A stretch of 64,000 nucleotides of DNA from Prorocentrum cordatum (lineage: Eukaryota > Sar > Dinophyceae > Prorocentrales > Prorocentraceae): NCBI GenBank assembly GCA_963575745.1, contig CAUYUJ010014595.1:327311-391310 (forward strand), given 5' to 3'. This document shows, in pieces, positions 39,490 to 56,180 of this stretch. How positions within the stretch are numbered: position 1 is the first letter of the stretch; the number at the start of each line of letters is the position of its first letter. Below the pieces are notes generated by a model. It did not search any database. It was not told the DNA's origin and was given only the letters and a program-made list of their open reading frames with translations. The position numbers and the translations under genes were made by a program.

Positions 39490-39765
39490 CTCTCTCTCTC
39501 TCTCTCCTCTCTCGCTCTCTCTCTCTCTCTCTCACTCTCTCTCTCTCTCTCTCTCTCTCTCTCTCTCTCTCTCTCTCTCTCTCTCTCTCTCTCTCTCTCT
39601 CTCTCTCTCTCTCTCTCTCTCCTCTCCCTCTCTCTCTCTCTCTCTCTCTCTCTCTCTCTCTCTCTCTCTCTCTCTCTCTCTCTCTCTCTCTCTCTCTCTC
39701 TCTCTCTCTCTCTCTCTCTCTCTCTCTCTCTCTCTCTCTCTCTCTCTCTCTCTCTCTCTCTCTAG
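39490..39765 (+). repeat. (CT)n array ending in AG, left flank of the retrotransposon
   Basis: About 135 CT units, with single-base C interruptions near 39507 and 39620, ending TCTCTCTAG. A long pyrimidine tract followed by AG is the form of a splice acceptor, so it could serve as a trans-splice site for the element's mRNA. Confidence 0.9.
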
Positions 39766-39916
39766 TCTCGGCTCGAGAGTGCCCAGCACTCAGACCGCAG
39801 CCGCGACGCGAAGCGCCCCGCCTCGGAGCCAGACTCCCAGGCCTCGCGAGACCGGAGGGGTCCCAGCAGGACCCTACTGATTCGCGTCACCTCTCCCCAC
39901 CAGAGCGCCCGCAGCA

Positions 39917-42487
39917 ATGGCCCCCAGTAAGCCGGAGCGCCGTCGCTCTTCCAAGCAGCCCCCGAGCTCGCGTCCTGCTGCTGAAGGGTCTCTCCTCCAA
40001 CGCAAGCAGGACTGCATCGCAGCTTTCAAGCAAGCGGGGTCTGACCGCCCCACGGCCGCATACAACGGGCTTGCCGAGCTGAACGCGGATGAGCTCCAGG
40101 CCACGTACGACATGCACAAGACCAACACGAAGAAGCTCGGCAGTGCCTTGATCCGCATGTGCGCCGCCAACCAGATCAGCTACACGCTGGATCACCACCA
40201 GCGCAGCAAGCCTAAGCGCAGTGGCGGTGACACATCACACCCACCAGTTGGGTCCGCACGTCTTCAGGCTGCGGACACCCAATTCATCGCCTTGGACCCG
40301 GCCTTTTGGAAGGTCCCAGTCCTCGCCGAACCCACATCACCTGACGACGGCAAGACGTACAAGCCCAGTATCAGCCTCCACGACTACGAGAGCGGTGAAC
40401 GGCTGCTGCAACACCACCTCGAGCAGGGTAAGCGTACCACGGGTCAGCTTGCGATTGCTGTCATGGGCCCAAAAAACGACAACTACGTCGGTACCGAGCT
40501 CGCCGTCCCCGTGCTGAAGCGTCACCCCAAGGCGCCCAAAGTGGTCCACACGCACGTCCCCGTGACCGTGTACCAGCTGGGCACCAAGGAAGTCGCCTGC
40601 ACGGAAAAAGTAGCCGTCGCCACCATCGACCCTGCCGACCACGTATGCTGGATTCGGGCGACCATACATGAAACCGAGGCCATCGCCGCAGTCCCCTCCA
40701 TGCATCAGGCCTTCGAGGACCAGTTCTCGGGAGGTGCCCCCGTGAACGGTGGTCCACGCGCCAAGGGTCCTTTCCGAGGGGACTCCGCTCCACAGGACAA
40801 GGCGCGCCAAAACCAAAAGCACAGGGAGTCCAAGAAAGACGCTCGCCGCCAGGAGCTCGATAGTCAGCTCCAGGACACCTTCAAGGCCCTCTTCCACGGC
40901 AACTTTAAAGCCGTCACCATCCTCGAACCCTGCAAAAGCCTAGGCAGGTTTGGATCGGGCGTCGGAAAGAGGTCCCTGGCTGCCACCTTCGGCGTCAGTC
41001 TTCAAGCGGTCGACAAGGTCTTGGCGGGTTCAGGGCAACTCGGCGCCACCTACGACCTCAGCAACGTAGGTGCAGACGAGCCCACTGCAGACAAGTACCA
41101 GACCGTGTGGTTCCCTGAGGACCAGCCCATCACGATGGCAGATGCGTTCCAGAAGTCGGTGGATTTCAAGGCCCTGGGAGTCGTCAGGCACGGCAAGTCA
41201 GGCTTATTGGGGATCCGTGTTTCACGAGGGTCAGACGCCGCCAAGGCTGCTGCCGTCAGCATCCGCGGCTGCGAAGCCACCCTCGCCAAGACGCGCTACC
41301 GCATCACTGGCATTGCGGCACGCCACGCCACGCTGACCCAGCTCGCCAAGACTCTCACGGGCCCGTCCGTTAAATGGGACTGTGAGGTCTACCACACCGC
41401 CTGGGACCCAGCCACTTCGGCTCAGTTTGCCTTAGTGCGCGCCCATCGTCCCCCACTCACATATACGGTACAGGTCGCAGGGTGCCCCATCCCGTGGAGC
41501 ATCACCGAGGCCCCGCTGGCTGAGGTGGTGCCGAAGAGGGACAACGTTACCATCGTCACGCCTACCACCATCACAGAGCCTGTGACGCCGCCAGCCCGTG
41601 GTGGCGGCTTCAGCCCCGCCACTGGCACACTCCTCACCAAAGCGGCCCAGAGCCCTTACCTCCACGACCTCATGACTGCCACGCCCAAAGGCAAGGGCGT
41701 CGCACCGCTCCTGATCCCCAAGGAGGAGCCTTTAGCCAAGCGCCACCGATCCTCCAGTGGGAAACGCGACGCCACGCCGCACGCAAGATCACACGGCGCC
41801 CCAGGCCGCAGCTCCTCTGCACCCCCGCACGGCACGGACGGAGCTGCCGAGCAGACGGCCGTCCAAGGATCAGGTGGTCATGACCCGCAGCTTGGCACGG
41901 TGGCGGCTGAAGGTGGGGGCCACACCGAAGGGGACGCTGCCACAGCCGCCGAAGTACCAGGCGACGCTGACGACGTCGAGATCCTCTCATCAGGTGATGA
42001 ATACAGCGTGGCTTCCCACGAACTCAACACCTTCGGCGAACGCTTCGCATCGGCCCCTAAACTGCCAGATGCCGCCACGACCCGCATCCAACACATGGAA
42101 CAACAGCACGAGCTGCTTGCCAACACGGTGGATAACATGCAGGTTCAGCTTGCGGGCGTTCTCTCCTCCCAGGCCACACTCACGGAGCACGTCTCAGGTT
42201 TGGAACGGGGGCTTGCCACCGTCGTCACCCAGCAACAGACGGCAACCGCCGAAGCCGCTGCACTGCGTGGCGACATCCAGGCCCTCCTCGGGCACCTCAC
42301 GGGGGGCACCATCCACCTGCCACAGGTGGCCACTCTCGAAACTAAGAAGGAGGAAGCTGCATCAGTTGCCGATCCCGTGGTTGTCTGCGGGTGGATCGAC
42401 CAGCCAGGCCAGGTCACCCCAGGGACGGGGCCCCCAGGGGCTGACAAAGGCAAAGACAAGGGTCGGGTCACCCAGGAACCCTATTGA
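39917..42487 (+). CDS. Retrotransposon ORF1 protein (856 aa), coiled coil near the C-terminus
   Basis: By position, this is the RNA-binding ORF1 protein of the element. The basic N-terminus (KPERRRSSKQPP) leads into a helical region and a long domain of unknown fold (residues about 100-560) with KKDARRQELDSQLQDTFKAL near residue 310. Then come a Pro/Ser-rich linker containing GGGFSPATG, an acidic patch (DADDVEILSSGDE) and a heptad-rich segment at about residues 720-795 (MEQQHELLANTVDNMQVQL), predicted to be a coiled coil for self-association. No zinc finger is visible. The start is a true ATG 152 bases after the CT array. It ends at TGA 42485-42487, after which the same frame stays open into ORF2. 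I do not recognise the central domain. Confidence 0.7.
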   Translation: MAPSKPERRRSSKQPPSSRPAAEGSLLQRKQDCIAAFKQAGSDRPTAAYNGLAELNADELQATYDMHKTNTKKLGSALIRMCAANQISYTLDHHQRSKPKRSGGDTSHPPVGSARLQAADTQFIALDPAFWKVPVLAEPTSPDDGKTYKPSISLHDYESGERLLQHHLEQGKRTTGQLAIAVMGPKNDNYVGTELAVPVLKRHPKAPKVVHTHVPVTVYQLGTKEVACTEKVAVATIDPADHVCWIRATIHETEAIAAVPSMHQAFEDQFSGGAPVNGGPRAKGPFRGDSAPQDKARQNQKHRESKKDARRQELDSQLQDTFKALFHGNFKAVTILEPCKSLGRFGSGVGKRSLAATFGVSLQAVDKVLAGSGQLGATYDLSNVGADEPTADKYQTVWFPEDQPITMADAFQKSVDFKALGVVRHGKSGLLGIRVSRGSDAAKAAAVSIRGCEATLAKTRYRITGIAARHATLTQLAKTLTGPSVKWDCEVYHTAWDPATSAQFALVRAHRPPLTYTVQVAGCPIPWSITEAPLAEVVPKRDNVTIVTPTTITEPVTPPARGGGFSPATGTLLTKAAQSPYLHDLMTATPKGKGVAPLLIPKEEPLAKRHRSSSGKRDATPHARSHGAPGRSSSAPPHGTDGAAEQTAVQGSGGHDPQLGTVAAEGGGHTEGDAATAAEVPGDADDVEILSSGDEYSVASHELNTFGERFASAPKLPDAATTRIQHMEQQHELLANTVDNMQVQLAGVLSSQATLTEHVSGLERGLATVVTQQQTATAEAAALRGDIQALLGHLTGGTIHLPQVATLETKKEEAASVADPVVVCGWIDQPGQVTPGTGPPGADKGKDKGRVTQEPY

Positions 42488-55643: not shown

Positions 55644-56008
55644 TCTCCTCCTTTCTGCCTGCCCGTGTGTACGCGTGGCTCCGCGTCCACGGTGTCAGGG
55701 CGTGGGGGCGGGGGGTGCCCCGTCACTGCGCGCCGCTTTGCGGCCAAGCGCCCAACTGGCGGTCTGCCAAACCGCCTAGCCACGTGTCAGCACGTCGCCT
55801 TTCTTGTTGGGGCCTCTTTCTTTACGCGGTCTGACAGGTGAGATCATCACCGTCTGTCCGCCGTCTGTAGCGTCTGTCGCACTGCGCCGGGGGAGGGGTT
55901 TTTGTTGCCCGCCCTCGTATCTAAAGGCTGCACCGCCGCAAATAGTGTTTGCGAGTTGTCGCACCGCAGTGCGCCTCGCGGACGGACCCTGGTCCGCCTA
56001 CTTGTCCG
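55644..56008 (+). other. 3' region of the retrotransposon
   Basis: About 365 bases between the ORF4 stop and the right CT array, with no ORF of note and no A-rich tail. The element seems to end straight into (CT)n, as microsatellite-targeting LINEs can. Confidence 0.55.
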
Positions 56009-56180
56009 TCTCTCTCTCTCTCTCTCTCTCTCTCTCTCTCTCTCTCTCTCTCTCTCTCTCTCTCTCTCTCTCTCTCTCTCTCTCTCTCTCTCTCTCTCTC
56101 TTTCCCTCTCCCTCTCCCTTTCCCTCTCCCTTTCCCTCTCCCTCTCCCTCTCCCTCTCCCTCTCCCTCTCCCTCTCCCCC
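56009..56180 (+). repeat. (CT)n then (CTCTCC)n array, right flank of the retrotransposon
   Basis: About 46 pure CT units to 56102, then CCCTCT/CCCTTT hexamers to about 56180, then CTCCTCCCCAG. Same strand sense as the array at 39490-39763. Confidence 0.9.

Follow-up and report, generated by a model that had tools for sequence, protein, structure and literature searches.

A 64,000-nucleotide (nt) stretch of DNA from the dinoflagellate Prorocentrum cordatum (contig CAUYUJ010014595.1 of assembly GCA_963575745.1, positions 327,311 to 391,310 of the forward strand; hereafter the window) contains an element of the long interspersed nuclear element (LINE) type, ~16.2 kilobases (kb) in length, with four open reading frames (ORFs) in the sense orientation. 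All four ORFs carry members of one family of 15 hairpins, each with a variable outer stem, a bulged C and a terminal part of the form GNC / UYCA loop / GNC, and all in one sense orientation. We interpret the locus as an autonomous dinoflagellate LINE of the apurinic/apyrimidinic endonuclease (APE) type whose giant RNA would be selected for assembly into a ribonucleoprotein (RNP) through an array of hairpins that bind protein, an interpretation that we regard as evenly poised. All results on the element come from a single copy with fifteen internal hairpin repeats. The hairpin array and the spliced-leader context described below are new relative to an earlier note on the locus, which had proposed a giant LINE that targets CT repeats.

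A family of fifteen hairpins

The 15-mer GGCGGCTTCAGCCCC is present in six exact copies, and in nine copies when up to two mismatches are allowed, all on the + strand within 41603-55132, compared with 0.41 expected on both strands. The flanks of these copies vary yet remain complementary. A strict rule, derived from these same sequences, demanded an outer stem of at least 3 base pairs (bp), a bulged C, a 3-bp upper stem and a UYCA loop. It identified 14 sense hairpins and one antisense hairpin (46257) in the element; the remaining 47 kb of the window contained no such hairpin on either strand. The strict sense hairpins lie on the + strand at 40247-40281, 41593-41627, 42789-42823, 43093-43127, 44140-44174, 45285-45319 and 46398-46432 (hairpins 1 to 7), and at 48544-48578, 49762-49796, 51557-51591, 52780-52814, 53809-53843, 55108-55142 and 55225-55259 (hairpins 9 to 15). 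The upper stem of hairpin 6 is compensated (GCC/GGC), hairpins 7, 12 and 15 have a UCCA loop, and hairpin 15 has a 12-bp outer stem. Hairpin 8 (47465-47499, +), which has one outer-stem mismatch, was recognized by a covariance model at 25.4 bits; the best of the model's remaining matches in the window scored 17.1 bits in the antisense and 12.7 bits in the sense orientation.

Neither codon choice nor codon order reproduced this count. After 2,000 shuffles of synonymous codons within the ORFs, the mean number of strict hairpins was 0.24 and the maximum 3, compared with 14 observed, while shuffling of codon order gave a mean of 0.07 and a maximum of 2. Hairpins were also counted without regard to loop sequence; those included had a tetraloop, a 3-bp upper stem, four or more outer pairs and a single bulged base, of whatever identity, on the 5' side. 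Among the 33 sense hairpins found in this way, UUCA loops with a bulged C occurred ten times, UCCA loops with a bulged C three times and every other class once; among the 38 antisense hairpins no class occurred more than once. No TYCA loops with bulges other than C were found, no family hairpin was found in the 3' untranslated region (UTR; 55644-56008, +), and an Rfam search over 39400-56300 gave no matches up to an E value (E) of 1. Encoded peptide repeats were rejected as an explanation of the hairpins, the first loop base falling at codon positions 1, 2 and 3 in 5, 1 and 8 of the 14 strict hairpins, respectively. A role in frameshifting was also rejected, the hairpins as a group lying away from the ORF junctions.

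The six exact copies of the 15-mer, together with the 81% likeness of hairpins 7 and 15 over 47 nt, would be expected if the hairpins were copies of a small palindromic repeat that had spread inside the element. We consider this most unlikely, as the majority of outer stems differ in sequence yet pair, and no strict copy is present outside the element.

Covariation, folding and spacing

The 14 strict hairpins align without gaps. In this alignment 91.4% of the 140 cells are paired, compared with 63.4% after shuffling, a score that is partly built in because the selection rule itself demands six of the ten pairs. The four outermost pairs, which are free of the rule, are formed in 44 of 56 cells (13 of 14 for each of the two inner pairs and 9 of 14 for each of the two outer pairs). 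Cells changed on both sides numbered 32, compared with 9.4 after shuffling; further pair types numbered 18 versus 12.6 (3 of 500 shuffles); and the covariation score was 0.686, compared with 0.161 for shuffled and at most 0.204 for slid sequences. The number of pairs with a change on both sides, taken alone, was not significant, being reached by 82 of 500 shuffles. Two pairs of the stem are invariant. Minimum-energy folds contained the bulged C and the loop in 15 of 15 hairpins.

On the sense strand, G-U cells outnumber A-C cells by 10 to 4 (of 140), a weak lean toward sense RNA as the paired form. The same imbalance bears on the proposal that the hairpins work at the level of single-stranded cDNA or DNA, where they might mark sites of pausing or strand transfer as a 16-kb template is reverse-transcribed. 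Even spacing and uniform orientation would also suit a ruler for reverse transcription; with the pair types leaning, if weakly, to sense RNA, we judge such a role improbable.

Successive hairpins are separated by 1346, 1196, 304, 1047, 1145, 1113, 1067, 1079, 1218, 1795, 1223, 1029, 1299 and 117 nt, or roughly one hairpin per 1.1 kb. Eleven of the 14 gaps fall between 1,029 and 1,346 nt, within a factor of 1.35, an evenness reached by none of 100,000 uniform placements; with the strict 14 hairpins only, the corresponding figure is nine of 13 gaps, reached by a fraction of 1.5e-5. The exceptions are two close pairs and one long gap that spans the endonuclease domain of ORF4. By eye, the hairpins lie mostly within linker-like protein stretches rich in Pro, Gly, Ala and Ser.

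Four ORFs, most likely in one element

The earlier note had described four long frames between two (CT)n arrays, and this layout was borne out: all four frames are open on the + strand, with an array at either end. ORF1 (39917-42487, +) encodes 856 amino acids (aa) and has a coiled-coil-like stretch, recognized by eye, at 42095-42292. The ORF2 frame (42488-45988, +), separated from that of ORF1 by one in-frame TGA, has its first ATG at 42659 and encodes 1109 aa from there. By eye it has a signal-peptide-like start at 42749; three hydrophobic segments (44375-44431, 44705-44749 and one that is Ala-rich) are present in ORF2 and in none of the other ORFs, and a basic RQRRRR lies at 44486. Near its end, WHGT ... 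GRAYVS (45668-45826) resembles the H/Y motifs of ADP-ribosyltransferases by eye and without profile support; a Pfam search at E 10 with this region returned nothing. The ORF3 frame (45751-48546, +; first ATG 46003, 847 aa from there) has a Cys-rich cluster at 47143-47361, and the ORF4 frame (47976-55643, +) contains the enzyme domains. The frame steps by -1 from ORF2 to ORF3 and again from ORF3 to ORF4.

Codon usage was compared between the element and four neighbouring ORFs, with ORF4 taken from 49812 onward in both tests. Correlations were 0.92-0.96 among ORF1-ORF4 and 0.60-0.85 with the neighbours. When the ORFs were divided into chunks of 150 codons, 30 of 31 chunks from the element were nearer to other ORFs of the element than to the neighbouring ORFs; 7 of 10 neighbour chunks were nearer to neighbours, the three exceptions being all three chunks of a methyltransferase ORF. 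Given the common codon usage and the distribution of the hairpins across all four ORFs, ORF1-ORF3 most likely belong with ORF4 in one element. If instead ORF1-ORF3 were an unrelated gene cluster beside a shorter LINE, it would be in keeping that no Pfam family was found for any of the three; with hairpins and codon usage common to all four ORFs, and the CT arrays enclosing all four, we find such an arrangement barely credible. The earlier claims that ORF2 and ORF3 are part of the element, and that it is one unusually long LINE-type element, are thus upheld by the hairpins, the codon usage and, for the latter, the domains of ORF4. ORF2 and ORF3 may be two extra genes gained by the LINE.

The enzymatic motifs that the earlier note had assigned to ORF4 were only in part recovered by profile searches, which were made against Pfam with three pieces of ORF4. 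The endonuclease motifs, APE-type by eye (49926-50723, +), matched Exo_endo_phos at E 3.4e-7 (30.7 bits, cutoff 24.5), and the RNase H domain (53886-54308, +) matched RNase_H at E 9.1e-6, half a bit above the cutoff (26.3 versus 25.8 bits). Reverse transcriptase (RT) motifs A, B and C (LDRQKCFD, QGSSWS and FVDD; 52275-52571, +) and a post-RT zinc motif (53577-53636, +) are present by eye, with Pfam scores below cutoff, that of zf-RVT having E 0.021. The RNase H region also matched Ribonuclease H1 chains weakly (E 0.011), and the endonuclease piece gave nothing against PDB chains up to E 1. Long terminal repeats were not found: among 18 direct-repeat families in 36000-64000, only (CT)n frames the element.

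The first in-frame ATG of ORF4 is at 49404; 48141 is a GTG, and a further ATG at 49812 lies directly ahead of the endonuclease domain. Codon periodicity is low over 49500-49900, and a pyrimidine tract ending in AG lies just upstream of 49678. The in-frame but weakly periodic stretch 49540-49811 could be an intron or contain an internal trans-splice acceptor. With the tract and AG, the ATG at 49812 and the weak periodicity, separate expression of the enzyme ORF through trans-splicing is therefore possible.

The (CT)n ends and a candidate spliced-leader relic

The element is framed by a 5' (CT)n array (39490-39763, +), a candidate target site and polypyrimidine tract, and by a 3' (CT)n array (56009-56100, +) that continues as (CCCTCT)n to 56184. 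No poly-A tail was seen at the 3' end. Runs of CT, TC, GA or AG of at least 16 nt are confined in the window to these two arrays, and both arrays are followed by AG. Starting two bases past the 5' array, TCTCGGCTCGAG (39766-39777, +) agrees with the 12-base 3' end of the spliced leader at 9 positions, the differences being three transitions, and may be a decayed spliced-leader 3' end. A search for target-site duplications was unproductive, only two 6-mers being common to the flanks searched.

In dinoflagellates, transcription is polycistronic and accompanied by trans-splicing (PMC10666404). Insertion into (CT)n by choice is plausible for the element on the evidence of this one copy. If the relic TCTCGGCTCGAG is real, the element RNA would have been trans-spliced before insertion, and the copy would start with what remains of the leader. 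The arrangement suggests that landing in (CT)n may supply a new copy with a trans-splice acceptor. The arrays need not have been a chosen target, however: they could be polypyrimidine tracts of host genes or simple repeats, or one of them could be the tail of the element itself. The AG after both arrays and the trans-splicing of dinoflagellate transcripts (PMC10666404) fit this alternative, and the position of the window's sole long CT runs, at the two ends of the element, speaks against it; we hold it to be a real possibility, though the less probable one.

A model for the array and its alternatives

A single bulged base under a small loop, on a stem of variable sequence, is a usual form of protein-binding site, as in the MS2 type, and dispersed packaging hairpins are thought to act in RNA viruses much as we propose here. 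In our model, all four ORFs would be carried on one RNA and each hairpin would be a putative binding site for one protein, most likely encoded by the element itself (ORF1p or the Cys-rich ORF3p). The array would allow this protein to select its own giant RNA from the mRNA pool and to coat it evenly, yielding an RNP for use in target-primed reverse transcription. Nicking by the endonuclease would then occur on the GA strand within a (CT)n tract, and the copy would be placed downstream of CT in the sense orientation. This tract, together with the AG of a retained spliced-leader end, would form a trans-splice acceptor, and the new copy could be expressed from a host polycistron without a promoter of its own.

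The putative binding protein could also be a host factor acting in export, in stability or in escape of a long polycistronic RNA from nonsense-mediated decay. ORF2-ORF4 lie behind stop codons, so the RNA could be a decay substrate, and the hairpins extend over all ORFs, which would fit such a function. On the other hand, the rest of the window (47 kb), with its further ORFs and retroelement pieces, has no strict hairpin, and we consider a host function unlikely. A more elaborate version of the element-encoded model, a virus-like LINE in which packaging hairpins and an element protein would form a particle around the 16-kb RNA and ORF2 would be an envelope-like membrane protein, seems to us very improbable. 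It would be in line with the restriction of hydrophobic segments (three) to ORF2 and with the signal-peptide-like start of that ORF; against it, N-x-S/T sites (eight in ORF2) and basic R-x-R/K-R sites (two) also occur in ORF3 and ORF4 and so do not set ORF2 apart.

Several observations weigh against the selective-assembly model, in addition to the part of the pairing score that the selection rule builds in. With regard to the hairpins, the centroid structure displaces the bulge by one position in those at 42789 and 52780, and for those at 48544 and 49762 equally good folds were reached by 11 and 10 of 200 shuffles, respectively. The domain layout of the proteins may add to the even spacing. 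A looser count in the element gave 157 sense and 374 antisense hairpins, the most frequent loops being UUCA (9) in the sense and UGAA (6) in the antisense orientation; the UGAA loops are the complement of the UUCA palindromes, as must occur. Since palindromes thus appear on both strands, it is the bulge and the G-U pairs, and not the palindrome, that support strand specificity. With regard to the proteins, Pfam searches with whole ORF1-ORF4 gave no match up to E 0.1; the protein partner is putative. In NCBIfam, ORF1 had a single match at 13.3 bits (cutoff 200) and ORF2 and ORF3 had none. AlphaFold predictions, made without relatives, of the ORF2 end (45104-45985) and of a piece of ORF1 (40199-41596) were unusable, with a mean predicted local distance difference test score of 34.6 and 34.3, respectively. 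The RVT_1 match in ORF4 (E 0.041) reached 14 bits against a cutoff of 29.6, and the position of the catalytic Glu of RNase H has no Glu, being aligned with Asp. With regard to the leader, TCTCGGCTCGAG has mismatches at 3 of 12 positions and was noticed post hoc (positional chance ~0.002 from the match density on the + strand), and the spliced-leader-end 12-mer is not enriched across the window (39 found, 42 expected). CT targeting and recent activity, both put forward in the earlier note, rest on this one copy.

Genomic surroundings

The GC content of the window (0.595) can be compared with the 59.7% reported for the P. cordatum genome (PMC10666404). Relics of the spliced leader, whose motif is DCCGTAGCCATTTTGGCTCAAG, tag retrogenes (PMC12014239; also PMC6050394). 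A relic with 2 of 21 mismatches lies upstream of the element at 36950-36970 (+), where none were expected in 100 shuffles, and identifies the window as dinoflagellate nuclear sequence. It heads an open frame (36956-38458), which is probably a processed gene copy. A tandem pair of spliced-leader-like 3' ends, CTTTGGCTCAAG and TTTTGGCTCAAG, is present at 15021-15047 (-), the pattern expected from repeated retroposition.

The methyltransferase ORF (34728-36284, +) encodes a C-5 cytosine methyltransferase (PF00145, E 6.5e-10) without interruption. It lies outside the CT arrays and is reminiscent of the Symbiodinium DNA methyltransferases (DNMTs) borne by retrotransposons; no Pfam family was matched by the ORFs between it and the element. 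A Copia-type fragment is present at 62986-63897 (-), with RVT_2 at E 1.9e-5 and 24.9 bits, under the cutoff of 31.6. Repeats elsewhere in the window comprise minisatellites with a similar 11-nt-based unit (of the CTCTTGGGGCC type) at 6329-6808, 21582-22143, 36553-36909 and 58590-58869, a tandem array of ~21 copies of a 41-bp unit at 33303-34186, and a large imperfect inverted repeat at 59117-59748 (arms of 28-68 nt, 87-96% complementary), perhaps a foldback element.

Comparison with known systems

Searches for relatives covered proteins, contigs and the literature. When ORF4 residues 560-2150 were compared with the 7,988 proteins sharing most words, none passed E 0.001. Contigs were scanned with six short peptide patterns per query, a method whose reach is close relatives, in collections that may omit the genome from which the window comes. 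In IMG/VR, the RT region gave no stretches, the endonuclease region 12 and ORF2 three, none of which were confirmed; in the GTDB contigs, the RT region gave four stretches, again none confirmed. A DNA pattern for the hairpin matched 23 stretches in IMG/VR at one site each, and the covariance model recovered that site in all 23 and added two weak matches (E 0.71 and 0.73), with no array among them. Among the open-licence papers listed for dinoflagellate LINEs, additional ORFs, dispersed packaging stem-loops or the structure of LINE RNA, no title or abstract start pointed to a comparable hairpin array.

Insertion into microsatellites is known for LINEs, the R1 clade including such elements. The (TG)n-specific non-LTR families named Togen are framed by a simple repeat, as is the one copy here; they are, however, placed with the relatives of NeSL, whose clade has a restriction-like endonuclease, whereas the endonuclease here is APE-like (PMC4640811). 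SymbioLINE-Dnmt of Symbiodinium is, like the present element, a dinoflagellate LINE with an ORF ahead of the RT ORF; a figure legend names Exo_endo_phos, RVT_1 and RNase_H, the set matched here with RVT_1 below cutoff, and no poly-A tail is reported for it (PMC5890265). In contrast, its upstream ORF encodes a methyltransferase, where we found none and four ORFs are present instead, and it has target-site duplications, which are not detectable here (PMC5890265). No hairpin array is mentioned in the passages of that source that describe it (PMC5890265).

How the proteins of a LINE recognize the RNA of their own element is still unsettled. Recognition is usually credited to the cis-preference of nascent proteins. 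The other usual explanation is a 3' stem-loop (PMC5135761). The stem-loop of stringent-type LINEs is, as proposed for the hairpins here, an RNA hairpin able to mark its own RNA; it lies in the 3' UTR, whereas the 15 hairpins here all precede the stop codon of ORF4 (PMC5135761). With fifteen evenly spaced copies of one hairpin, LINE RNA recognition would become directly testable with a 35-nt probe. If true, the gain of a trans-splice acceptor through targeting of (CT)n would give target choice a new rationale.

The array also resembles the coat-protein operators and dispersed packaging hairpins of RNA phages and viruses, which have a single bulged base below a tetraloop and occur in several copies per genome RNA. 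In the MS2-type operator the bulged base is A and the loop ANYA; these features are absent here, the 14 aligned, rule-selected hairpins having a bulged C, a 3-bp upper stem and a UYCA loop. If the selective-assembly model is true, the array would connect LINE RNPs with the way in which packaging signals work in RNA viruses.

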